64,000 bases of DNA from assembly GCA_021324975.1 (NCBI GenBank), contig JAJPIA010000101.1, positions 77,924 to 141,923 on the forward strand, read 5' to 3'. Below the pieces are notes generated by a model. The model had not been told where the DNA came from, did no database searches, and worked only from the letters and a program-made list of their open reading frames with translations. Position 1 is the stretch's first letter. The number at the start of each line of letters is the position of its first letter. This stretch comes from Bacillota bacterium (GTDB lineage Bacteria; Sysuimicrobiota; Sysuimicrobiia; Sysuimicrobiales; Segetimicrobiaceae). The translations under genes and the position numbers were made by a program. Positions 2,027 through 35,170 of the stretch are shown one piece after another.

Positions 2027-3337
2027 ATGGCAGAGAGGCTGACGCGGCGCGCTGTGTTGAAGGGGCTCGGCGGAACAGTGGCGGCCGCGGGGACAGCGGG
2101 GCTGCTCGGCGGGCGCGGGTTCGCGGCCGAGCCGGCGCGCCTCAAGTTCATCGTCTGGAACTATCAGGTCCAGACCGTCCAGCAGTTCATCAACCAATTC
2201 GAGGCGGCGAACCCCGACATCAAGGTCGACATGGAGGTCATCCCGGGAAACGAGTACATCCCAAAGATCCAGCTCATGCAGAACGCCAGGACGCCCTTCG
2301 ACGTGCTCTACGTCGCGGACGGGATCCTGGCCCAATGGTCCACGTGGCTGCAGCCGCTCGACGCGTACGACGGCGCGGCGGCGCTGAAACAACAGATGCT
2401 CCCCGTTGCGCTGCGTTCCATGACGTACAAGGGGCGGCTGTACGGGCTTCCATACTTTTCGAGCTACTTCGCCCTGATCTACAACGACCGCATGCTCAGG
2501 GGCGCGGGGTTTGCGGCACCGCCCAAGACCTACGAGGAGTGGACCGAGCAGGCGCGCGCCATCAAGAGCAAGGGGCTCAGCAAGACGCCGATGCTGTGGC
2601 CCGTCAAGATCTCCGGCTGGGGCGGCATCTGGGTCGTCAATGCAATGGCGGCCTCGCGGGGCGGCCGGGTGCTCGACGACAGCCTGAATGTGACGCCGGT
2701 GGCGCTCGCGTCGCTGCGCTGGTGGGTATCGACGTACAAGGAAGGCCTGTCCGATCCAAACGGGATCGAGTTGGATCCCAACACGTCCGCGACCGCGTTC
2801 ATGGGCGGAGATTACGCCACGATGCTGTCGACGAGCTTCTTCGCCGGCCCGCAGTGGGCGAACGACAAGGATAAGTCGAAAGTGTACGGCGTCACGAAGC
2901 TCGCCCCGACCCCCGCCCTGCACCGCACCGCGGGCTTTGCGCGGCTCTACGGCATCAACGCCGCGAGCGCCCACAAGGCTGAAGCGTGGCGCTTCGTCAA
3001 GTACATGGGTGGGACCGACAAGAACGGCACCTACGTCACGCCCAAGGCCTGGGTCACCTCGGGCGCGTTGACATGGGGCTACCGCGGCGTGGAGAAGGAC
3101 CCCACCGTCGCCGCGTCGCTCCGGTCATGGGGTGCCGACCCCGCCCAGGTCGAGGCGAACCTCGAGAACGCGGTGCCGATGAGCGCCATCGTGCCGTTCC
3201 AAGCGGTTTGGTACTCCGAGTGGGAACAGGACGCCAACGGGGTGTTGCAGGACATGCTGGTCGGCCGCACCCCGGTGGAGCAAGGCGCGCAGGCCTGGTC
3301 GGCGAAGGCAAAGGAGCTCGCGGCCCGCTATAAGTGA
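2027..3337 (+). CDS. Extracellular solute-binding protein, carbohydrate ABC family 1
   Basis: A 436-residue periplasmic or surface-tethered binding protein. ATG 2027 is preferred because GGGAGG ends six bases upstream; an in-frame ATG at 1994 lacks such a site. The N-terminus LTRRAVLKGLGG carries the twin-arginine motif followed by a hydrophobic stretch and AFAAEP-like cleavage region, so Tat export is predicted. The rest matches SBP family 1, with FIVWNYQVQTVQQFINQFEA at the N-lobe and a C-terminal hinge region. The gene overlaps the next one by four bases (GTGA), so it is co-translated with two permeases. No ATP-binding subunit follows; such systems often use a shared ATPase encoded elsewhere. 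Confidence 0.92.
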   Translation: MAERLTRRAVLKGLGGTVAAAGTAGLLGGRGFAAEPARLKFIVWNYQVQTVQQFINQFEAANPDIKVDMEVIPGNEYIPKIQLMQNARTPFDVLYVADGILAQWSTWLQPLDAYDGAAALKQQMLPVALRSMTYKGRLYGLPYFSSYFALIYNDRMLRGAGFAAPPKTYEEWTEQARAIKSKGLSKTPMLWPVKISGWGGIWVVNAMAASRGGRVLDDSLNVTPVALASLRWWVSTYKEGLSDPNGIELDPNTSATAFMGGDYATMLSTSFFAGPQWANDKDKSKVYGVTKLAPTPALHRTAGFARLYGINAASAHKAEAWRFVKYMGGTDKNGTYVTPKAWVTSGALTWGYRGVEKDPTVAASLRSWGADPAQVEANLENAVPMSAIVPFQAVWYSEWEQDANGVLQDMLVGRTPVEQGAQAWSAKAKELAARYK

Positions 3338-4284
3338 ACTCCCAGGCGCCCCCGGCCGGGCTCCCGGCATCCGGTGCGCCGGCAGATGTGGCGTTCCGGC
3401 GGGCGCGGCGGGTGCGGCTGGACACGCCGCTCCGCCTGCTCAATGTGCCGAGCCTCGTGCTGATCGCCGCGTTTACCCTGGCGCCCATCGTGTACGTGGC
3501 GTATCTCAGCACGCTCGACCTGCGCATCGGCGCGCCGGGCTCGGGCGGCTTCGCCGGCTGGGCCAACTATCGCTTCGTGCTGTCGGACGGCGCCGTTGCG
3601 GCGGCGTTTCGCAACACGCTGTACTTCGCCGTCCTCTCCGTCGCCGCCGCCACGCTCGCGGGGCTCGGCGTGGCGCTGCTGCTCGACAGCGATGCCCCCG
3701 GCACCGGCCTCCTCATGGCCGGCGCCGTGCTCGCCTGGGGCATCCCGGAGATCGTCAACGCCTCGATGTGGCAGTGGATCTACAATCCGACCTTCGGCTC
3801 GCTCAACGGCCTGCTCGTCTCGCTGCACCTCACCGACCGGTACCGCGCATGGCTCAGCACGCCGGTGTCGGCCATGCACGCCGTCATCTTCGCCTACACG
3901 TGGAAGCTCGTGCCGTTCGTGGTCATCATCTTGTACGCCGCGCTGCGGTCCGTGCCCCTCGATTACTACGAGTCCGCCGCGCTCGACGGCGCGGGGCCCT
4001 GGGCGCGGTTTCGCTATGTCACGATGCCGTTCATCGCCCCGGCCCTCGCGGTGGCCGTCCTCTTTTGCGTCGTGTGGTCGATGCGGGCGTTCGACATCAT
4101 CTACGTCCTGACGAGCGGCGGGCCGGGCCAGGCCACGACGGTGCTGAGCTACTTCACGTTCGCCAAGGCGTTCCAGTTCGGTGACCTCGGCGCCGCCGCG
4201 GCCGTGGCCTGCCTGCTGACGCTCGTGACGCTCGCCCTCACGTTCGGGTACTGGCGCGCGCTGCCCCAGGAGGGGGGGTCCTGA
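3334..4284 (+). CDS. ABC transporter permease, MalF/UgpA type
   Basis: A 316-residue integral membrane protein with six predicted membrane helices. It starts with GTG 3334, overlapping the binding-protein stop as GTGA. The EAA loop that contacts the ATPase is visible as YYESAALDGAGPWARFRYV around residues 209-227. The short N-terminal cytoplasmic tail followed by one helix and a periplasmic loop is typical of the MalF-like half in family-1 sugar importers. It acts with the binding protein upstream and the second permease downstream. Confidence 0.92.
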   Translation: MNSQAPPAGLPASGAPADVAFRRARRVRLDTPLRLLNVPSLVLIAAFTLAPIVYVAYLSTLDLRIGAPGSGGFAGWANYRFVLSDGAVAAAFRNTLYFAVLSVAAATLAGLGVALLLDSDAPGTGLLMAGAVLAWGIPEIVNASMWQWIYNPTFGSLNGLLVSLHLTDRYRAWLSTPVSAMHAVIFAYTWKLVPFVVIILYAALRSVPLDYYESAALDGAGPWARFRYVTMPFIAPALAVAVLFCVVWSMRAFDIIYVLTSGGPGQATTVLSYFTFAKAFQFGDLGAAAAVACLLTLVTLALTFGYWRALPQEGGS

Positions 4285-19043: not shown

Positions 19044-20279
19044 TTAGTGCATCCGCGATAGGATCATCCGTAGCTCCGCGCCGGATGCCGGCTCCAACTG
19101 CTCCAACCTGGCAGCGTATGCGGACGCCCTCGATTTGTCCCCGCGGGTCATGTAGAGAATTCCGAGTTGATACAGCGCATTTTTGTGATCGGGTTTTACC
19201 CGCAGGACTTGCTCGTATTCCTCAATGGCTTGGTCGTAGAGCCCTTTCTCTTCGTACGCCGTCGCCAGATAGTACAGGATCTCCGCATCCTCGGGCGCAT
19301 ACTGCGCGGCCTTTTGGTACATGGCCAGCTGCCCGTCGTAGTCTCCACTTTCGTAGGCGATGCCGCCCAGCTGGAAGTACGCGTTCGGATAGTGAGGGTC
19401 GATTGCGATAGCCTCTCGGAAGTACCGCATGGCCTGATCATAGTTCTTCAGATTCTCGGCGAGGACGCCCTGAGAATACAGCGAGTCCGCGCTGTCCGCG
19501 CGTGCCTGCTTCTCTCGGCCGTTGATCACGGGCTTCAGGCGGTCGATCGGAATCGCGAACAGCGTCGAAATCTCCTTACGGAGATCGGGCGGCACGACCG
19601 CGCTGGAGACGAATCCAAGGACGCGCCCATCCTCATCGAAGAGGCCTCCGTTCGGAATGGTCTGTGTCACCGGCGCCGTGATCTGGATGAGTGAATTGAG
19701 CGGCGGGCCAATCGGACGATCGGGCTCGCTGACGAACCCGGACGTGAACGTCGGCACGAACGTCGGCTGCGGGAACAGCACGAGGACTTGCTGGCGAGCC
19801 TTGATCGCTCCGGACGTCCCCAATCTTACAAAGGGGATCCCGGTCCCTCGAAATTGCAAGATCGTAAAGTCGTAGTCGCTGTAGCTTCGGATCGCCCCGG
19901 CCTGGGACCTCAATTCATAGAAAGCGCCGGTCGTGAGCCGAGCCTCCAACCCACCGTTCGTCACCACGTGCCGGTTGGTGATCAACGTTCCATCCGGCGA
20001 AATAAAGATGCCCACTCCCACCGCCGTCGGTTGATTGTTCCTGTCACGGGCCACAAGAATTGCGGTGGCATCGAGGATTCGCCGCGTTGCCTCATCCAGG
20101 CGGTGTTCCGTCCACCAGCCGCGCACGGGCTCGGTGGCCAGGGCGCACAGAATCGCGAAGACCGTCGCAATGATAACTTCGCGCCTGTGGCTCCGCTCGA
20201 GATGGAGGACGCGATCGACGACGTTCTGTATCCCACGAGCTATGATTGGCGGGAGTCTAAGCCTCCGCCCCCGACCCAT
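19044..20279 (-). CDS. Membrane-anchored trypsin-like protease homologue with TPRs, nucleophile Ser missing
   Basis: 411 residues, starting at ATG 20279 after a GGGGGGTG stretch. A membrane helix (VIIATVFAILCALAT, about residues 33-47) is followed by a trypsin-like domain, then four to five TPR repeats (about 265-410). His (TNRHVV) and Asp (SDYDFTILQ) of the triad are present. At the nucleophile site, where GNSGGxLF is expected, it reads IPNGGLFDEDGRVLG, with Asn in place of Ser. The domain may therefore be a non-catalytic binder. No partner gene is linked. Confidence 0.85.
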   Translation of the reverse strand: MGRGRRLRLPPIIARGIQNVVDRVLHLERSHRREVIIATVFAILCALATEPVRGWWTEHRLDEATRRILDATAILVARDRNNQPTAVGVGIFISPDGTLITNRHVVTNGGLEARLTTGAFYELRSQAGAIRSYSDYDFTILQFRGTGIPFVRLGTSGAIKARQQVLVLFPQPTFVPTFTSGFVSEPDRPIGPPLNSLIQITAPVTQTIPNGGLFDEDGRVLGFVSSAVVPPDLRKEISTLFAIPIDRLKPVINGREKQARADSADSLYSQGVLAENLKNYDQAMRYFREAIAIDPHYPNAYFQLGGIAYESGDYDGQLAMYQKAAQYAPEDAEILYYLATAYEEKGLYDQAIEEYEQVLRVKPDHKNALYQLGILYMTRGDKSRASAYAARLEQLEPASGAELRMILSRMH

Positions 20280-20506
20280 CGAGCACCCCCCGGAGCGGCG
20301 CCGGTGCACGCATCGACGATGAGGTCGCCGCAAGCAAGATCACGGCGCGCCGCCGCCTTCAGAGACACAGTGACGATTTGACCGGTGGGCGGCTTCGAGA
20401 GGCCGGAGAGACTTCCTTCTCTCACGCCCGCAAGTGCGGCAGGGGAAGCAACCTGGAGGTGCCTCGGAGGTGCTGAGCTCATTACCCAGCCGACAAATGT
20501 TCCGGG

Positions 20507-20734: not shown

Positions 20735-22543
20735 GTGAACACGAGCATCCGCCACACCGTGGTCGCCGGCGGAATAAGCGGCCTGGTTGCCGGGCTCGTG
20801 CCCGCGCTGTCCCTTGACGTGAACAGTCCGGGGACGATGTCCGTCGGCCCGGCCGGGTGGGGTGCCGTGAGCGTCGCGCTCCAACTCGTGCTCGCCATGC
20901 TCGGCGGTGCGGGGTTCGGCGCGCTCGTTCGCGACCAACTGGATGGTCGTGCCGCCACCGCCGCGAGCGGCTTGTTGTATGGTCTGCTGTGGTGGATCGT
21001 GGGCCCCCTGACCGTCGCACCGATGGCCCACGGCCACATTCCCACCTGGTCGCTCCGCGACGCTACGGCGACGTTCCCCGCCCTCATCGCCTCTTTGTTC
21101 TACGGTGGCGTGTTGGGCGGCGTGCTTCCGCTGTTGACCGGCACGTTCGGGAACCCGCGCGCATCCGCGCGCTGCGAACCCGTGGTTCGACCCGTGCGGC
21201 GCATCGTCATCCTCGGCGGGGGATTCGGCGGTGTGAGCGTGGCGCAGCGCCTCGAGTTCTTGCTCGCACGCGACCCATCCGTTCAGATCACGATGGTGAG
21301 CCAGAGTAATTACCTCCTGTTCACGCCCATGCTGGCGGAGGTTGCGGCCAGCGGGCTCGAGCCGCAGCACATCAGCGCGCCCGTGAGAGCAGCATTCCTC
21401 CGGGTCGAGTTTCGCCACGCCGAGCTCGAAACGGTGAACGTAGCCGCGCGCCTCGTGAGAACGCGCGCCGCGGGCGCCGCGCGCATTGATGCCCTGCACT
21501 ACGATCACCTCGTGCTTGCGCTCGGTGCCGTGCCGAACCTGCGTCGCGTGCCCGGGCTCGAAGCGCACGCGTTCACGCTGAAGTCGCTCGACGACGCCAA
21601 CCGATTGCGCAATCACGTCATCGGCCTTCTCGAGCGTGCCGACGTCGAAGTCGATCCGCACGAACGGCGGCGCCAACTCACATTCGTCGTGGTCGGCGGG
21701 GGGTTCGCCGGCGCCGAGATGATTGCCGAGTTACGCGACCTGGTTCACAGCGTCCGCCGCTTCTACCGGGGGATCGACCCCGGTGCTCTGCGGTTCGTGC
21801 TCGTTCATTCGGGAGAACGCATCCTGCCCGAGCTCGGCTCGGCGCTGGCGGCATACGCGCGGCGCAAGATGGAAGCACGGGGCATCGAGTTTCTGCTCGG
21901 TGCGCGGATGGCCGCGGCGCATTCCGACAGCGTCGTGTTGGCCGACGGCCGGACCGTGCCAACCCGGACGATCGTGTGGGCGGCAGGCAACCAGCCACAC
22001 CCGCTGCTCCGGTCCCTGCCCGTCGAGCGCAGCCAAAGCGGCGCGGTGATCGTGGAGCCCACGCTGCAGGTCAAAGGGCTGCCCAATGTCTGGGCGGTGG
22101 GCGACTGCGCGCAGATCCCCGACGCGTTCCACGAAGGGAGTTCGTGTCCCCCCACGGCGCAGCACGCCGTTCGCGAGGGGATCGCCGTCGCCGAGAACAT
22201 CGTCGCGGTGTTGCGCGGTATCGCACCGCGGCCGTTTCGTTTCCGGACGATCGCGACGCTGGTCGCGCTCGGCCATCGCACCGCGGTGGCGGACGTTCGC
22301 GGGTGGAGATTTTCCGGGTTCCTTGCGTGGGCGATGTGGCGAACGGTGTATTGGTGGAAGCTTCCTGGGCTCGAGAAGAAGATTCGAGTCGCGCTCGACT
22401 GGACGATCGATCTGTTCTTTCCAAGGGACGTCGCGCTCTTGACGGCCTCGCCCTCGGTGCCGCAGGGCCTTGATGCCCCTGAGCCGGGCCGGGGCGCGTC
22501 CAGCGTTCCGACCCCTGCGGCCCCGCCCCCGCCCGCAACATGA
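20735..22543 (+). CDS. NDH-2-like FAD/NAD oxidoreductase fused to an N-terminal membrane domain
   Basis: 602 residues. Residues 1-140 form a four-helix membrane domain with LLYGLLWWIVGPLTVAPM (81-98). A pyridine nucleotide-disulfide oxidoreductase of the type II NADH dehydrogenase kind follows: FAD-binding RRIVILGGGFGGVSVAQRLE (155-174), NAD-binding TFVVVGGGFAGAEMIAEL, and FAD-contacting NVWAVGDCAQIPD. Redox-active cysteines are absent, as expected for NDH-2. A C-terminal amphipathic region follows. It probably passes electrons from NAD(P)H to quinone at the membrane. The N-terminal domain matches the repeats of the next gene, with which it overlaps by four bases. Confidence 0.88.
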   Translation: MNTSIRHTVVAGGISGLVAGLVPALSLDVNSPGTMSVGPAGWGAVSVALQLVLAMLGGAGFGALVRDQLDGRAATAASGLLYGLLWWIVGPLTVAPMAHGHIPTWSLRDATATFPALIASLFYGGVLGGVLPLLTGTFGNPRASARCEPVVRPVRRIVILGGGFGGVSVAQRLEFLLARDPSVQITMVSQSNYLLFTPMLAEVAASGLEPQHISAPVRAAFLRVEFRHAELETVNVAARLVRTRAAGAARIDALHYDHLVLALGAVPNLRRVPGLEAHAFTLKSLDDANRLRNHVIGLLERADVEVDPHERRRQLTFVVVGGGFAGAEMIAELRDLVHSVRRFYRGIDPGALRFVLVHSGERILPELGSALAAYARRKMEARGIEFLLGARMAAAHSDSVVLADGRTVPTRTIVWAAGNQPHPLLRSLPVERSQSGAVIVEPTLQVKGLPNVWAVGDCAQIPDAFHEGSSCPPTAQHAVREGIAVAENIVAVLRGIAPRPFRFRTIATLVALGHRTAVADVRGWRFSGFLAWAMWRTVYWWKLPGLEKKIRVALDWTIDLFFPRDVALLTASPSVPQGLDAPEPGRGASSVPTPAAPPPPAT

Positions 22544-24075
22544 AGCAACGCGCCCTCCCCTTAGCGGCACTCCGTGGGGCCGTCGCGGGCGCGGCAGCAG
22601 GGCTCGCGTTCGCCGCCGCGATGAGACAGTCCGGTGCGCTCGTGACGGTTGCGTCAATCGTCCACGCGAGTCCAGCAGGCCTGGATTTCGTCGCTCACCT
22701 GCTCGTCGCGGCGGCCGTCGGCGCCGGATTCGGCACACTCGTGTCGTCCGAGCGCCTCGGCGTCGGGGAGCTGTTGTTCTGGGGCCTCACGTACGGGATG
22801 GTGTGGTGGTTCGTGGGCGCGCTCACGGTCGCGCCGATGCTCCTTGCCGGGCGGGCGATCTGGACTGTTGCCGCCGCACAGGCGGCCTTGCCGAGCCTGT
22901 TCGGACACCTGTGGTACGGCGCGATCACCGCTCTGATCTACGCGGCGATCACGCCGGGGCCCTCGGACGGGCGGCCGCGTGTCACCGGCGGGACAGTAGG
23001 GGCGGGGGTGCTCGCCGGCGTCGCAGGAGCGTGGTTACTCGAGCGCCTCATCGCCACGCAATCGCCGTGGCTCGGCACCACCGGCCTGAGCCTGGCGACC
23101 TCGTCGCCGGCGCACCGGTTCGTCTTCCTCACGGGAGTCCTGGGCGGCCTCGTGTTTGCGTTGCTCTATCCTCAGCCGCGCGACGCCGCGGGCCCGGGGC
23201 TGATCCGCGGCGCATTGTTCGGGTTTGTCTGGTGGGCGGCCGCCGCCCTGTCCGCGCTGCCGGAGATCAACGGAGGGGGGTTGGCCTGGTCGCTCGAGGC
23301 GGTACGCGCGCGTTTTCCAGCGCTACCGGCGTTCGTTCTCTATGGAGGACTTGTGGCCCTGGTGTACCGATGGCTGCTCGCGGCGGGCCGGCTGCTGTTC
23401 GCGGACGACGCCACCCCCCGCGACGAGGAGGGCACCGGCACCCGCGGGTTGCGCGCCATCGGGCGCGGGGCCTTTGCAGGCCTGATCGGAGGTCTCGTCT
23501 TCACCCTCGTCATGGTTCGGGTCGGGTTTCTTCCCACGGTCGCTCAGATCGTCGGGGCTGCCTCCCCCTGGAGCGGATTTCTCGTGCATCTTGTCATCGC
23601 CAACATCATCGGCGCGAGCTACGGTCTACTGTTCTTGGGCCGCAGCGTCGGAACTGGATCCGCGCTCGGCTGGGGCGTCTCGTACGGATTCTTCTGGTGG
23701 ATTCTCGGTCCGCTGACCCTGCTGCCCGTTTTGCTCGGGGGCGCCCCGCGGTGGACGCCACAAGTCGCCGGCGCGCTGATCCCGAGTCTCGTCGGACATC
23801 TCGCGTACGGAGGGGCCGTGGGGATCGTGTTCTACCTGCTCGAGGTGCGCTACAACCCGTGGTGGGTTCCCCACACTGAGCTCATGGCGGCGCAATCGGA
23901 GCGCCGCAGAGCCGAAGTGCTGGCGTCGGCCTCCGCGTTGTGGGTGCTGGTCGTCATGCTCGGTCTGACGTTACCGATCATGCTGGCATGCGGGATGGCC
24001 CCAGCGTACAGCGGCACCGCGACTGCGCGGGGTGCATACGGCCAGAGCAGCGGCGAGGCCGGGCCGTGTCCTTAG
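22540..24075 (+). CDS. Polytopic membrane protein built of three repeats
   Basis: 511 residues, starting with ATG in an ATGA overlap with the oxidoreductase gene. Three homologous segments of about 160 residues each carry a stretch like the fusion domain of the preceding protein: LTYGMVWWFVGALTVAPMLL, ALFGFVWWAAAALSALPEIN and VSYGFFWWILGPLTLLPVLL. Each has an FxLYGG or HLxYGG ending. About 14 helices are predicted in total. No known transporter or redox motif is seen. Tight coupling to an NDH-2-like enzyme suggests a role around a membrane electron carrier, which is inference. Confidence 0.8.
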   Translation: MKQRALPLAALRGAVAGAAAGLAFAAAMRQSGALVTVASIVHASPAGLDFVAHLLVAAAVGAGFGTLVSSERLGVGELLFWGLTYGMVWWFVGALTVAPMLLAGRAIWTVAAAQAALPSLFGHLWYGAITALIYAAITPGPSDGRPRVTGGTVGAGVLAGVAGAWLLERLIATQSPWLGTTGLSLATSSPAHRFVFLTGVLGGLVFALLYPQPRDAAGPGLIRGALFGFVWWAAAALSALPEINGGGLAWSLEAVRARFPALPAFVLYGGLVALVYRWLLAAGRLLFADDATPRDEEGTGTRGLRAIGRGAFAGLIGGLVFTLVMVRVGFLPTVAQIVGAASPWSGFLVHLVIANIIGASYGLLFLGRSVGTGSALGWGVSYGFFWWILGPLTLLPVLLGGAPRWTPQVAGALIPSLVGHLAYGGAVGIVFYLLEVRYNPWWVPHTELMAAQSERRRAEVLASASALWVLVVMLGLTLPIMLACGMAPAYSGTATARGAYGQSSGEAGPCP

Positions 24076-26686: not shown

Positions 26687-27508
26687 CTAGCGTAGAGCAT
26701 CGTAATTGAACGGTTTGAGCGGCGGATAGGTGCGTGGTCCCATCTGTGCGATCCGTTCCTTCGCGCGTGCGATGCGGTCCGACGTGAGTGGATGCTCCGC
26801 GAGGAACGGTCCCCCCAACGGTCCACCGCCGTTTCCACCCTTCTCCATGAGCGTCTGGAAGAGTTGCAGCATGCCCTCCGGGTTGTACCCGGCAGTCACC
26901 ATGTCCTTGAGACCCGATGCATCCGCCTCGTCTTCGTCGTCCCGAGAGTGCTTCTGGCGCAGCACCCCCGCGGTGACGGCACCCCATCCAAGCGCAGCCG
27001 CCTTGTTCCCCGCGAGCAGGGTTCCGATCGCAACGGCGCGGCGCCGCTGCACCTGCTTGACGTACGCCTTCGCCCAGTGCTGCCGGTAGACGTGGGCGAG
27101 CTCGTGGCCGGTCACGGCCGCGACGGCGTCTTCTGTCTTCATGATCGCAAGAAGCCCGGTCAACATGAAGATGGGGCCCCCGGGCACCGCGAACGCGTTG
27201 ACTTCCTTGCTGTCGAGAACGTAGTACTGGTAGTCCCAGGTGGTCCGGTCCGTCTCAGAAAGATGCGCGACCAGGCGTTTCGCGAGGCCCTCGAAGAACC
27301 GCAGGCGGCCGTCCTTGACCGGTTGATACTTCTTGAGAAGGTCCTCGGTGGCCTTGGCGCCCACGGCCTTCTGCTCGGCCGGCGATGGAAGCGCCGGGGC
27401 CGCGTCGACTGGCCGCGAGAACACCCAAGGCGCGATGACCATGCTGACGCCGGCGCCTACAACACGCCTCCGGATTCTTCTGCGCGGTAACCGATGCTCC
27501 GAATTCAC
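26687..27508 (-). CDS. Secreted M48-family metallopeptidase
   Basis: 273 residues from GTG 27508. A basic N-terminus and hydrophobic stretch ending PVDAAPALP is a signal peptide or twin-arginine-like leader (RRRIRRRVVGAG). The zinc motif HELAH is at 135-139 and the third ligand Glu lies in DEDEADASGL. The C-terminal HPLTSDRIARAKERI is typical of periplasmic BepA/LoiP-like M48 proteins, which here lack a TPR domain. It should act on misfolded proteins outside the cytoplasm. Confidence 0.9.
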   Translation of the reverse strand: MNSEHRLPRRRIRRRVVGAGVSMVIAPWVFSRPVDAAPALPSPAEQKAVGAKATEDLLKKYQPVKDGRLRFFEGLAKRLVAHLSETDRTTWDYQYYVLDSKEVNAFAVPGGPIFMLTGLLAIMKTEDAVAAVTGHELAHVYRQHWAKAYVKQVQRRRAVAIGTLLAGNKAAALGWGAVTAGVLRQKHSRDDEDEADASGLKDMVTAGYNPEGMLQLFQTLMEKGGNGGGPLGGPFLAEHPLTSDRIARAKERIAQMGPRTYPPLKPFNYDALR

Positions 27509-27698: not shown

Positions 27699-30074
27699 CT
27701 ACTGCCGCGCCATCGCGATGCGTAGCGCATCCTCCGGCACGACCAGGTGGTCCACGCTTTCGGCGGCCTCAGCGATGGCAATCTGCACGCCCCTGATGCG
27801 GCCTGTAAATGCGTTGCCGCGAGACTCGTAGTCCGGAGAGACCGGCGCCCCGCTGTCCTCACCGACGTCGCAGCCATCGTCGGCAGAAAACGCCATCGGC
27901 TGCGTGGCTCCGACCGCGCCCTCGCCTACTTTCTTGCCGTCGACAAAGAGCGACACCTTACCGCCCTTGGCCAAACCGCCGCCGGCGTAGGCGAACTCCA
28001 TGCGCACCTGATGCGGGCCGGCCGGCAGCGCGTTGGCCGCCTCAGCGTAGAAGCGTTGTATGCCGAAAAAGTTGTAGCAGTACTTGAGCTTACCCCCCTT
28101 CGCGTAAAGGCTCCAACCGCCAGCGTTGCCGCCCTGGCAGACGATCACGCCCTCTACGCCAGAGGCCGGCACCTCGATCTCGGCGGTCACCGCGTGGGAC
28201 TTGTTCTTGATATTCACGACCGAGTTCTCCGACAGGCGACCCATGCCGGGGAAGAGGATCTGGGTCCTCCCTTTGACCAGCACCGGCCGGCCGGCGAAGT
28301 CGGAGTTTAAGCGCTCGACACGCCGGTCGTCGAGCGGCAGCACATTGTACTTCACCGCCTCGATCAGCCACAGGCGCTGCAGCTCGCGCAGCTTCTCCGG
28401 CATCTCCTTGGACAGGTCGTGTGCCTGGGTCCAGTCCTTGGTGGTGTCGTAGAGTTCCCAGACGTCATCGTCGAACGCCGGATACTTCCCGGTCATCACC
28501 CATGGGGTGCTGTGCCGGGTGACCGCCGTCCAGCCCCGATGGTAAATGCCGCGGTTGCAGAACATCTCGAAATACTGCGTCTCGCGCCGCTCCGCGGCCT
28601 TGGCGTCGTTGAACGAGTACAGCATGCTGACTCCCTCAATCGGTTGTTGCTGGACGCCGTTCACGAACAGGGGCTCCGGGAGCCCCGCCGCCTCGAGGAT
28701 CGTCGGCGCGACGTCAATCACGTGGTGAAACTGGGTGCGGATCTCGCCTTTGCCCTTGATCCCCCGCGGCCAGTGGACGATCATGCCATTGCGCGTACCG
28801 CCCCAGTGGGACGCCACCTGCTTCGTCCATTGATACGGCGTGTCCATGGCGTGCGCCCAGCCCACAGCGTAGTGATTGTAGGAATCGGGCCCGCCGAGCT
28901 TGTCGAGCCGGGCCGTGAGGAATTCGGGCGTCTCGATGCCCGTCATGCCGTTGAGGGTGAGCATCTCATTGTACGTGCCGTTCACCGTGCCCTCGGCCGA
29001 CGCGCCGTTGTCGCCGATAATGTAATACACGAGCGTGTCGTCCAGGACGCCGAGCTTCTGCAGCCCATCTATCACTCGGCCGATGTGGTGGTCGGTGTAT
29101 TCCAGGAAGCCCGCGTAGACCTCCATCTGGCGGCGCAGCACGGGTTTGAGCGCCTCGGGCATCGCATCCCACGCCGGGATCTCCGTGGGGCGGCGGGTCA
29201 GCTGAGCGTCCTGCGGGATCACGCGCAGTTCTTTTTGCCGCTTGAACGTCCGCTCGCGCAGCTTGTCCCACCCGTCGTTGAACTTGCCCTTGTATTTGTC
29301 GGCCCACTCCTTCGGCACGTGATGCGGGGCGTGGGTCGCTCCGGGCGCGAAATAGACGAAGAACGGCTTGTCAGGCATCAGCGCCTTTTGCTGCCCGATC
29401 CACTTGATGGCCTTGTCGGTCATATCCTCCATGAAGTGATAGCCTTCTTCAGGCGTCAGCTTAACCTCCACCGGCGTCGTGCCTTCGTAGAGCGTGGGGT
29501 ACCACTGGTTGGCTTCGCCGCCGATGAATCCGTAGAAGTACTCAAAGCCCCCGCCGCCCGTGGGCCAGGCATCGAACGGGCCCGCCGGGCTCGTCTGCCA
29601 CACCGGCACCTCGTGGCATTTGCCGAACTGGCCCGTCGCGTAGCCGTTGAGCCTGAGCGTCCTGGCGATCGGCGAGGCGGTATTGGGCAGAACCGAGCAA
29701 TACCCGGGCGCGCTGGTCGCAATTTCGGTGATACCACCCATGCCCACCGAGTGGTGGTTGCGCCCAGTCAGTAGCGCCTGCCGCGTCGGCGAGCATAGGG
29801 CCGTGGTGTGAAAACGATTGTACCTCAACCCCCCGGCCGCGAGGCGCTCCGCCGTCGGCGTGTTGCACGGTCCGCCAAACGCACTCGACGCGCCAAAGCC
29901 CACGTCGTCGAGCAGCACGATGAGGACGTTCGGGGCCCCCTTCGGCGGGCGCAATTGCTCGATCGGCGGGTACTTGGCATCGGGATCTTTTGCGTCGTAC
30001 GTGATCAAGCCCGTGCGGGGCCGATCGGGAATCGGCAGGATCTGGCGGGGATGCAGTTCACGTTGGGATGCCAT
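27699..30074 (-). CDS. Arylsulfatase, type I (formylglycine-dependent)
   Basis: 791 residues, starting with ATG 30074 behind GGGAGGACC. The metal-binding Asp pair is in LIVLLDDVGFG (56-57). The sulfatase signature is CSPTRQALLTGRNHHSVG with Cys94, the residue converted to formylglycine. The catalytic domain runs to about residue 540; a beta-rich C-terminal region (from about 600) looks like a LamG/jelly-roll module. No signal peptide is seen. The maturation enzyme is represented only by a truncated fragment directly upstream. Activity would need another FGE in the genome. Confidence 0.92.
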   Translation of the reverse strand: MASQRELHPRQILPIPDRPRTGLITYDAKDPDAKYPPIEQLRPPKGAPNVLIVLLDDVGFGASSAFGGPCNTPTAERLAAGGLRYNRFHTTALCSPTRQALLTGRNHHSVGMGGITEIATSAPGYCSVLPNTASPIARTLRLNGYATGQFGKCHEVPVWQTSPAGPFDAWPTGGGGFEYFYGFIGGEANQWYPTLYEGTTPVEVKLTPEEGYHFMEDMTDKAIKWIGQQKALMPDKPFFVYFAPGATHAPHHVPKEWADKYKGKFNDGWDKLRERTFKRQKELRVIPQDAQLTRRPTEIPAWDAMPEALKPVLRRQMEVYAGFLEYTDHHIGRVIDGLQKLGVLDDTLVYYIIGDNGASAEGTVNGTYNEMLTLNGMTGIETPEFLTARLDKLGGPDSYNHYAVGWAHAMDTPYQWTKQVASHWGGTRNGMIVHWPRGIKGKGEIRTQFHHVIDVAPTILEAAGLPEPLFVNGVQQQPIEGVSMLYSFNDAKAAERRETQYFEMFCNRGIYHRGWTAVTRHSTPWVMTGKYPAFDDDVWELYDTTKDWTQAHDLSKEMPEKLRELQRLWLIEAVKYNVLPLDDRRVERLNSDFAGRPVLVKGRTQILFPGMGRLSENSVVNIKNKSHAVTAEIEVPASGVEGVIVCQGGNAGGWSLYAKGGKLKYCYNFFGIQRFYAEAANALPAGPHQVRMEFAYAGGGLAKGGKVSLFVDGKKVGEGAVGATQPMAFSADDGCDVGEDSGAPVSPDYESRGNAFTGRIRGVQIAIAEAAESVDHLVVPEDALRIAMARQ

Positions 30075-31786: not shown

Positions 31787-31796
31787 TTGCTAAAAT
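31787..31796 (+). promoter_or_regulatory. Extended -10 promoter element for the MalT-type regulator
   Basis: TTGCTAAAAT contains the TGnTAnAAT extended -10 pattern inside a marked AT-rich island (31760-31800) in otherwise GC-rich DNA. No good -35 hexamer is present. It implies transcription beginning near 31803, so the ATG at 31795 is unlikely to be the translation start. Confidence 0.45.
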
Positions 31797-31887
31797 GTGG
31801 GGCGAACAACGCAAAGACAGTTTTGAAATATCATGTGGCCTGCAAATTAAGAGGCGTGGCGGTCATCAAGCGGGCGGGGGACACGCT

Positions 31888-34753
31888 TTGACTGAACGTG
31901 TAAGTCACGTGGGAGTTGCAGGTTCACAACCGGTTGATCCCCAGGCTCGTTCGGCTCGTGGAGACGGCACGAGCCGACGAAGATCGACCCATGTCAGCGG
32001 AACCAACGCGGCAGGCGCTCGGCGCGATGTGCTGGTGACAAAGATCCGTACTCCACGGGTTCGCTCCCACCTCGTCCACAGGGAGCGATTGCTGGCCAAG
32101 CTCGAAGCAGAGCGTGCTCGCCCGCTCACGCTGCTCTGCGCTCCGGCTGGTTTTGGCAAGACCACTCTCCTCGTCGACTGGCTGGCCTCGCGGAGGACAC
32201 CTGACGGTCCTCCAGCCGCGGTAGCATGGCTGTCGTTGGACGAGGGCGACAACGATCCAACCCAATTCCTCCGGTTCTTGATCGCCGCGCTACGCGCGGC
32301 GGACCCACGGATTGGCGCCACCCTCCTCGAAGTCCTCAATACGCCACCCCACCCATCTATCCGGGCGATGCTGACGCTCTTGGTGAACGATCTCGTCGCT
32401 GCCGGCCGGGATATGACGCTCGTGTTCGAAGACTTTCACGTAATCCGCGATCGCGTGATCCACGACGCGGTCGCCTTCTTGCTCGACAACCCGCCGGCGC
32501 TGCTTCACATCGTCATCATGACGCGAGAAGATCCGCCCCTACCCCTGCCACGCCTGCGTGTCGCCGACGCGGTCTGCGAAGTGCGTGCCGCTGATCTTCG
32601 GTTCACCCTGAAGGAGGCGACCGCATTTCTTGAGGAGGTGATGAGGCGTCGGCTGTCACCCCAGGACCTTTCGGCGCTCGTGACCCGGACGGAGGGTTGG
32701 GTGGGCGGTCTGCAGTTGGCCGCGCTGTCGATGCCGAAGCAGGCGGATGAAATCTCTGCGTTCATAGCCGGCCTCGCGGGGAGTCATCGGTACCTGCTTG
32801 AGTATCTCACCGACGAGGTTCTCGCCCGGCAATCGCCTCCCATCGTTACGTTCCTGCTCCGCACTTCGATTCTCGACCGGTTGAATGTCGAGTTGTGCGG
32901 GGCGGTGCTCGGGGAAGAGAATCTGGACGATACCAGGGCGAAGCTTGACGAAGTCGAACGCCGCAATCTCTTCCTCGTTCCGCTCGATGACGAACGCCGT
33001 TGGTACCGGTACCATCGCCTCTTCGCGGACCTGCTGCGGGCCCGCCTCCGGCAGACAGACCCGGTCTTGTTCGCCGACCTCCACAATCGCGCCAGCCGTT
33101 GGTACGAGCAGCACGCGGTCTCGGGCGAAGCCATTCAACATTCGTTGACAGCGCAGGACTTCGATCGCGCGGCACAAATGGTCCAATCGAGCTCGCTTCG
33201 ATCGATCGCTCAAGGAGAGGTCCAAATCGTCCTTGACTGGTACCGTCGCCTTCCGGTGCCGCTGGTGGAATCCGATCCCCGGCTCGGCATTCCCTACGCG
33301 TACGCCTTGATGCTGTCCAATCAGCCGGACCTAGCCAAAGCCGAGATGCAGAACGTCGAACGGCACCTGCCGTCCGACCCGACCTCCCTGGACGCAAGGG
33401 CGGCACGCGGACGGATCGCGTTGCTTCGGGCCATTCAGGCGATTGGGAATGGCCATCTTGATCAGACTGTCGCGCTCGCTGCCGAAGCCCAGGCGTTGCT
33501 TCAGCCGCAAGACGAGGTGGCACGGGCATTCGCGCAACTCGGCATGGCTTATGCCTTTCGGGTGAGCGGGGACGTCGCGCCTGCCAGCGAGCGCACGCTC
33601 GTCGCGGCTACCGAAGAAGCGGGGCGCCTCAACCTCCCGGCGCTGGAACGCGTGGGCCTCAGTCTCCTCGCCCGCCTGTACATGTGCCAGGGGAAGCTCC
33701 GGCGGGCCGAAGTCACCTTTGACCGCGCGGAACGCGTGATCGGTAGGCACGTGCTGATGGGTGCCCCGATTTTCCATTTCAGCCGGGGAGAGCTCCTGCG
33801 AGAGTGGAACGATCCGCGCGGGGCGGAGACATCGCTCCAACAGGGCATCGACGCGATCTCCGAGCGCAACGGCGTCGACGCGTGGGTGGCGATGGAGGGG
33901 TATTTCTCATTGGCGCGGCTCCGGCAAGCGCAGGGAGATGGCCCGGGGGCTATGGGCGTGCTGGACGCGTATGCCAGGCTCGCGCGCCGATTCGACGTTG
34001 GCCCCCAAATGCTGGACGTGGCTGCCGCCGCGCGCGCCCGGTTGTGGCTGATGCAGGGCAACCAGACCGCCGCTGCGCGGTGGGCGGCCGGTGCCGGGCT
34101 TAGTTCCGATGACGCCGTGAGCTATGCGCACGAAACGGAGTACAAGGTGCTCGCACGCGTCCTGATCGCCGTGAAAGATCCCGCGGCCGCGCCGTTGCTC
34201 AACCGTCTCTTGGCCGACGCGGAACGATGCGGGCGCATCGGTGGTGCGATCGAAATCTTGACGCTCCTGAGCTTGGCTTGGTACGCCCTCGGCGATCGGG
34301 CTCGGGCGTTTGCCGCGCTGGACCGAGCCCTGACCCTCGGGGAACCGGAGGGGTACGTGCGCGTCTTCGCGGACGAGGGCGCCCCCATGGCCTCGCTGCT
34401 CCGCCGCGCCCGGCTCCATGGCATCGCGCCCGAATACACCGCCCGCTTGCTGGCCGTGATTGAGGGCGGTCGGGGCGGGCCCATTGCGTCGCGTGCGGTC
34501 TCCGAGAGCGCCCCGCCGTCTATCGCTCCGCGTTCCCCGGCCGCGTCCGCCCTCGTCGAGCCGCTCACGGAGCGGGAGCGCGAGGTCCTCCGGCTGGCCA
34601 TCTCGGGCGCCTCAAACCAGGAAATCGCTCGCCCGCTCGCTCACCATCACAATCGGCACCGTCAAACGGCACATGCACCACATCTTGGGGAAGTTCGGGG
34701 TGCAAAACCGTACTCAGGCCATCCTCCGCGCCCAGGCCCTCAATCTCGACTGA
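31888..34753 (+). CDS. MalT-type LuxR-family regulator with a frameshift in the DNA-binding domain
   Basis: A STAND-class activator of about 950 residues. A conserved N-terminus (LVTKIRTPRVRSHLVHRERL) leads to Walker A CAPAGFGKTTLL, an ATPase with GWVGGLQLAALS, then a long TPR-like sensor region. The C-terminal LuxR helix-turn-helix starts LTEREREVLRLAISGASNQE but shifts frame by +1 near 34622-34640; the true continuation (LTITIGTVKRHMHHILGKFG) is in the next frame and ends at 34753. Without correction the protein reads on to 35067 as junk. The start is uncertain (TTG 31888, or GTG codons near 32030). Confidence 0.85.
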
Positions 34754-34762
34754 GATTATCCG

Positions 34763-35170
34763 GCCTGCTTCCTCATGCTCATCGCGTTTCTGCCGTTCGC
34801 CACCCGCCTCGTCGGCGCGTATCCTCATCGCCCGACGGCGCTGATGGCCTACGGGCTGACCGCATTGGCAACGCTGCTCGTGCTCTCCGCGCAGTGGTAT
34901 TATGCGGTCGGGCGCGCGGGCCTGGTCGCGTCGAACGTGGACGCCGAACTCGTCCGCTACGGGAAACTGAAGCTGTTGCTGCCCACCGTCATTTGTGCGC
35001 TCTCCATTGCCACGGCGCCCGCGGCCCCACCGCTCAGTCTTCTCCTGCTCGTCCTCATGCCGGTTGATCTCCGGCGCGCTTCGCCTACCACGGTGCTTCC
35101 CGCCTGCCGACAACCCGCGACAACTGAAATCCAACCCAGGCGCCCGCGGCGATCGCCAGGGTCGTCGTGA
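34763..35170 (+). pseudogene. TMEM175-like (DUF1211) channel remnant
   Basis: The frame reads CFLMLIAFLPFATRLVGAYP, a tryptophan/tyrosine helix (LVLSAQWYYAVGRAGLV) and LVRYGKLKLLLPTVICALSI, matching the second half of bacterial TMEM175-family K+ channel proteins (about 200 residues). The first half, with the FSDGVFAIA motif, is missing; the similarity starts ten bases after the LuxR stop. The 3' end runs into the ThrE small-subunit gene on the other strand. Confidence 0.6.

Follow-up and report, generated by a model that had tools for sequence, protein, structure and literature searches.

A predicted type II NAD(P)H dehydrogenase fused to one copy of a membrane unit and encoded with a three-copy partner

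Type II NADH dehydrogenases (NDH-2) are, in the textbook picture, single-subunit, surface-bound and non-pumping enzymes. They are otherwise held to the membrane by amphipathic helices only, and one survey of the family explicitly excluded sequences with fused domains (PMC5299459). The YagU-like DUF1440/DUF6789 superfamily (PF07274, PF20587) is uncharacterised: E. coli yagU is required for extreme acid survival, and YagU is known only by its induction by acid and by a threefold drop in the acid survival of the knockout (PMC1626474). Here we describe a gene pair, A and B, in which an NDH-2 and relatives of this superfamily appear to be brought together. The pair lies in a 64,000-nucleotide stretch of DNA (the window, taken here as the whole stretch analysed) from a genome of the CSP1-3 group.

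Gene A (20735..22543, + strand; ORF and translation) starts with GTG and encodes 602 aa, an N-terminal membrane unit followed by the NDH-2 part. The unit (20735..21154, + strand; residues 1-140) is delimited by unit alignment, AlphaFold helices and charge pattern, and its four helices span residues 3-30, 47-64, 72-98 and 114-138 in the AlphaFold model. The NDH-2 domain (21197..22429, + strand; residues 155-565) contains Rossmann domains for FAD and NAD(P)H together with membrane helices at the C-terminal end, according to Pfam, the AlphaFold model and Foldseek. A ends at 22543 and gene B begins at 22540, stop and start overlapping in the sequence ATGA (22540..22543, + strand). B (22540..24075, + strand; ORF and AlphaFold model) encodes 511 aa that form three tandem units plus a thirteenth helix beyond the third unit, which the original prediction did not include. 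Elsewhere in the window, a trypsin-like protease fused to TPR repeats is encoded on the opposite strand closely upstream of the pair (19047-20333), a large sulfatase lies at 27702-30074 with an M48 peptidase nearby (26690-27508), and a MalT-like TPR regulator at 31795-35064 may carry a frameshift, the match to the LuxR/GerE DNA-binding domain covering only positions 2-27 of 57 while the ORF continues.

The oxidoreductase part of A has the hallmarks of an NDH-2. Pfam detected Pyr_redox_2 (1.2e-43), Pyr_redox and NDH2_C (3.3e-9) in the window's A and all three domains in 41/41 A homologues; the best PDB matches in a profile search were NDH-2s, and Foldseek aligned the AlphaFold model (pLDDT 83, with linker residues 140-149 below 50) to the C. 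thermarum enzyme (4nwz) with an E-value of 7.5e-33 and a TM-score of 0.92 on the target. Both dinucleotide-binding motifs are present (GGGFGG at residues 161-166 and GGGFAG at 321-326) with essentially invariant glycines, and the GD and WxxG motifs of NDH-2 are conserved. The second dinucleotide-binding motif belongs to the GxGxxGxE motif of the nicotinamide site (21695..21718, + strand; homologue alignment), in which Gly321, Gly323, Gly326 and Glu328 are unchanged in all 41 homologues; Glu328 is the equivalent of the catalytic E172 of S. aureus, the motif and the role of the glutamate having been described previously (PMC5299459). At the quinone site A carries AQHAVR (22157..22174, + strand; homologue alignment), of which Ala475, Gln476 and Arg480 are again unchanged in 41/41 homologues (AQHAxR). 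This fits the AQxAxR form, a recognised variant of the NDH-2 quinone motif found in 15% of 1762 sequences (PMC5299459). The C-terminal membrane-interacting domain is likewise in place, as NDH2_C in all 41 homologues and as helices at residues 529-561 in the AlphaFold model. Judged on sequence and predicted fold, A is thus a true NDH-2 fused N-terminally to one membrane unit, and the covalently anchored NDH-2 that had been proposed is borne out by the NDH2_C domain and by the fold match to solved NDH-2s.

The nicotinamide site, on the other hand, does not look like that of an NADH enzyme. In most NDH-2s the second strand of the nicotinamide domain ends in an acidic residue (E272 of Ndi1) that is thought to exclude the phosphate of NADPH (PMC11670749). 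At this position Glu or Asp occurs in the solved NDH-2s of the alignment with A, and Glu in the ordinary NDH-2 that the window's genome also encodes (LIEAGPRILP); where NADH specificity calls for Glu or Asp closing this strand, A has His358 (codon 21806..21808, + strand; alignments), which occurs in 41/41 A proteins with a nearly constant Arg four residues further. Since an invariant His replaces the residue that favours NADH, we infer by analogy that A probably prefers NADPH. Against this, in one yeast the residue at this site is uncharged, yet its enzymes are reported to oxidise NADH and not NADPH (PMC11670749). The NADH:quinone oxidoreductase of the original prediction is therefore supported in its NDH-2 part and modified as to NADH, the site appearing adapted to NADPH.

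The unit fused to A recurs in B. The WW-x-x-G-x-L-T-x-x-P pattern, which had been noted once in the N-terminus of A and three times in B, was located in the form WW-x-x-G/A-x-L-T/S-x-x-P at residue 86 of A and at residues 89, 231 and 386 of B, the second B copy reading WWAAAALSALP. Similarity extends over the full length of the four units of ~135 residues, with pairwise identities of 29-43%, local alignment scores 10-31 standard deviations over shuffled sequence and 17 alignment columns invariant across all four units of the window pair, each unit having four hydrophobic helices. In B (AlphaFold pLDDT 87, pTM 0.88), HMM matches place unit 1 at 22546..22956 (+ strand; residues 3-139), unit 2 at 22978..23391 (+ strand; residues 147-284) and unit 3, the most conserved of the three, at 23443..23859 (+ strand; residues 302-440). 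A pair of histidines is present in unit 1 (H53/H123) and unit 3 (H350/H420) and absent from unit 2. The final helix (23929..23985, + strand; residues 464-482 in the AlphaFold model) is followed by a C-terminus that the charge pattern predicts to lie outside.

For the window's unit, no Pfam or NCBIfam domain reached its cut-off, DUF1440 scoring 18.4 bits in B, under the curated Pfam cut-off of 34.7. Across 42 B proteins, DUF1440 matched 41 (best 4.9e-11) and DUF6789 matched 23 (best 2.4e-7). When the units were aligned with stand-alone single-unit proteins and E. coli YagU, the invariant columns included a helix-2 His and, in helix 4, GHL; H50 and H120 (alignment A7 numbering) are invariant across the superfamily members aligned, YagU among them, and B units 1 and 3 share these columns with the stand-alone members and YagU, whereas the superfamily His pair is missing from unit 2 of B and from the A unit of the window. 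By these alignments the unit is a divergent relative of the YagU-like superfamily, and we file A as a variant form of NDH-2 and its unit as a divergent DUF1440/DUF6789 relative. The original prediction would have been undermined had the repeat proved to be a common known transporter domain; the profile search with the repeat matched uncharacterised DUF1440/DUF6789 only, and neither sequence nor fold searches recovered a solved relative of B in the PDB (best fold E 0.39). Transporter families in Pfam gave weak, chance-level matches and no solved transporter matched by fold. Stand-alone single-unit proteins (L135, L136, L138, L140, L141, L142) combine the His pair with Met-rich outer segments (MMGMLPM, MMGMG), which together might form a metal site, and their neighbours differ. 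E. coli yagU (L152, 1-2001) is divergent from paoABC, the genes for a periplasmic aldehyde oxidoreductase, and this gives the superfamily a redox neighbour.

We next consider the association of A with B, which provides the strongest line of evidence in this analysis. A scan with one genome per species returned 43 loci for B, distributed over Actinomycetota, Chloroflexota, CSP1-3 and Acetothermia. A was the next gene upstream, on the same strand, in 41/41 B loci with upstream sequence, counting one A whose N-terminal unit has diverged beyond the reach of the profile (L046) and a few cut by a contig end. When 21 of those genomes were searched whole, B was never found alone; B occurred in 16 of 251 sampled Chloroflexota genomes with A adjacent in 16/16 (one A counted though contig-truncated), and in 297 Actinomycetota genomes A was present with each untruncated B examined. 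The pairing is supported by coupling and by the correlation between A and B distances (r = 0.88). Of 35 loci measured, 28 have the B start 4 bases ahead of the A stop, 6 have it 8 bases ahead and 1 has it one base after. No third conserved gene recurred in the neighbourhood survey of A-B loci, and no plasmid or viral relatives of the pair were found. The proposed partnership thus proves obligate and translationally coupled at the level of the genes, and the survey for gene pairs with the same fusion found the 1+3 pair across several phyla. Its recurrence in dozens of unrelated genomes rules out both chance and an artefact of assembly. We consider it very probable that A and B form an obligate complex.

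In a tree of 158 units, A, B1, B2 and B3 group by position, with 7 label changes (minimum 4, shuffled labels 93.5); with the small number of columns and the many weakly resolved forks, the tree is read for this grouping and not for the order of duplications. This clustering by position indicates that the 1+3 architecture is old and predates its spread among these phyla. Two departures were encountered. An A paralogue of 710 aa with a degraded N-terminal unit (L186, 1454-3586) has no B in its region, and its genome also carries a normal A-B pair (L183). In Streptomyces sp. NBC_01481 (L055, 4413-5847), B is split by fission or frameshift into two ORFs, exactly between units 2 and 3.

How might the two proteins be arranged? 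The loops and linkers predicted to be inside are rich in positive charges, with up to 4-6 per linker, and those outside have few. This positive-inside pattern indicates that both ends of each unit are inside, with the NDH-2 domain in the cytosol and the C-terminus of B outside; the NDH-2 domain is thus predicted on the cytosolic side, as NAD(P)H requires. One unit on A and three on B further suggest a 1:1 complex with four units. We moderately favour a reading in which A and B are the two obligate parts of an integral-membrane NAD(P)H:quinone oxidoreductase, its cytosolic NDH-2 surrounded by four YagU-like units. In such a complex the NDH-2 part of A would oxidise NAD(P)H, probably NADPH, on the cytosolic face via FAD and pass electrons to quinone at the AQxAxR site at the membrane surface. 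The four-helix unit of A would anchor the enzyme in the bilayer and dock on the three units of B, the 1:1 pair presenting four units (16 helices plus one) of pseudo-fourfold character that would serve as a fixed platform for quinone access. Close to the outer face, the histidine pairs in units 1 and 3 of B could then be a proton or cofactor site.

These His pairs are the main ground for an alternative in which the units do more than receive quinone. In the B model the two histidines stand in helices 2 and 4, both 5-6 residues inward of the outer ends of two parallel helices; H350 is 88% and H420 100% conserved, and the helix-2/helix-4 pair is common to the aligned superfamily members, E. coli YagU included. 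Haem or metal could possibly be bound there. In a transmembrane electron conduit, haem b or metal would be held towards the outer face by the pairs in units 1 and 3 of B and in some A units. Electrons would travel from cytosolic NAD(P)H through FAD to quinone or cofactor and on to an outside partner, as in b561-type or FRE/NOX-type systems. The pair also seems to be gained and lost as one (79 units have both histidines, 60 neither and 12 a single one), and a DM13 gene, assigned to electron transfer by Pfam, adjoins the gene pair in one CSP1-3 locus (L016) and three Streptomyces loci. Nevertheless, a tree-aware test of His co-occurrence gave p 0.25-1 on just 3 independent pairs, too few for significance, and with one His pair per unit, on the outer side only, there is no obvious relay from the cytosolic FAD. 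Moreover, the pair is lost in unit 2 and in most actinobacterial A units, and no conserved c-type haem partner is encoded nearby. We therefore regard such a conduit as unlikely. Improbable, too, is the bolder proposal that the pair represents a novel type of respiratory complex: an NADPH-linked, transmembrane NDH-2 whose four YagU-like units hold His-ligated cofactors (haem or metal), so that a reaction which is normally non-electrogenic in NDH-2 would become transmembrane or electrogenic. If true, this would also supply the first biochemical role for the DUF1440/DUF6789 (YagU) superfamily.

Conservation bears on the opposite possibility, that B and the A unit are merely a scaffold anchoring the NDH-2 in the membrane, a lipid domain or a supercomplex, with no redox or proton role. 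An anchor is plausible for an enzyme whose relatives are held only by amphipathic helices (PMC5299459), and conservation is lowest in the A unit (mean identity about 35% vs 58% for the NDH-2 part). However, three more units with position-specific conservation, in which one His and numerous Gly and Trp residues are invariant, exceed what an anchor needs, and we judge a pure scaffold quite improbable. Ranked last, B as a transporter or channel that A would drive or gate through its redox state is very unlikely: repeat-built architectures of 12-13 helices are common among transporters and yagU matters for acid survival (PMC1626474), but B has no fold likeness to any solved transporter, the B protein alignment holds no conserved acidic or Lys residue within the helices, and Pfam transporter families score at chance level.

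Returning to the quinone oxidoreductase that we favour, the host genome of the window also encodes complex I and an ordinary NDH-2, so that A and B would offer an additional route for electrons rather than the sole entry point. The neighbourhoods revealed no general metabolic context for the pair: a glucose dehydrogenase gene lies close by in three loci (L016, L023, L144), a 6-phosphogluconate dehydrogenase-family gene in L144 only and a DM13 gene in the four loci mentioned above. Glucose dehydrogenase and 6-phosphogluconate dehydrogenase are potential sources of NAD(P)H; the glucose dehydrogenase and DM13 neighbours are hints and no rule. In the CSP1-3 relative (L016, 608-6588), genes for a glucose dehydrogenase, an oxidoreductase that starts with GxGxxG and, on visual inspection, is possibly of the GMC type, and DM13 lie directly upstream of A. 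In L144 (784-8760) and L023 (2957-9341), the pair stands beside glucose dehydrogenase and GH15 glycosidase genes in what looks like a glucose oxidation operon. A locus in Acetothermia (L150, 1198-5444) places an unfused NDH-2-like gene (2987-4192) between two stand-alone DUF1440/DUF6789-like units on the same strand, and this is an independent link between the unit and an NDH-2 enzyme; NDH-2 beside stand-alone units was seen only in Acetothermia and not in Chloroflexota.

The literature on NDH-2, DUF1440, DUF6789 and YagU yielded no description of an NDH-2 fused to this unit, a weak absence as most subscription journals lay outside the search. The membrane redox module first suggested thus appears undescribed. 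As for B as a possible carrier of a cofactor or of electrons, the haem or quinone pocket is a hypothesis that draws on the conserved His pair. The pair is seen in many soil and groundwater bacteria, where the unit-fused enzyme would deliver NAD(P)H electrons to the respiratory membrane. A widespread two-gene, integral-membrane NDH-2 with an obligate partner of 12-13 helices and a cofactor site apparently shifted towards NADPH would alter the textbook picture and raise the question of electrogenicity. The YagU-like superfamily, known only from an acid-survival phenotype, would also be tied to a defined redox enzyme, and its function would become directly testable.

Compared with the NDH-2s of C. 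thermarum (4nwz), mycobacteria (NDH2, 9mqy) and yeast (Ndi1), A has both dinucleotide domains, the GxGxxGxE, GD, WxxG and AQxAx(Q/R) motifs and the C-terminal membrane domain, and differs in its N-terminal four-helix integral domain, its obligate three-unit partner and its His where the acidic residue of NADH specificity would stand. With DUF1440/YagU and DUF6789 proteins the units share four helices, the helix-2 His and GHL(Y/F/W) in helix 4, whereas the tandem triplication and the NDH-2 fusion are particular to the pair and the Met-rich outer segments of the stand-alone units are gone. YjlC of Bacillus subtilis is a soluble DUF1641-type protein that is not known to have membrane repeats, and in this it differs from B. 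What A and B have in common with YjlC-YjlD (9a63, 9pxk) is, going by the PDB titles, an NDH-2 with a dedicated partner subunit.
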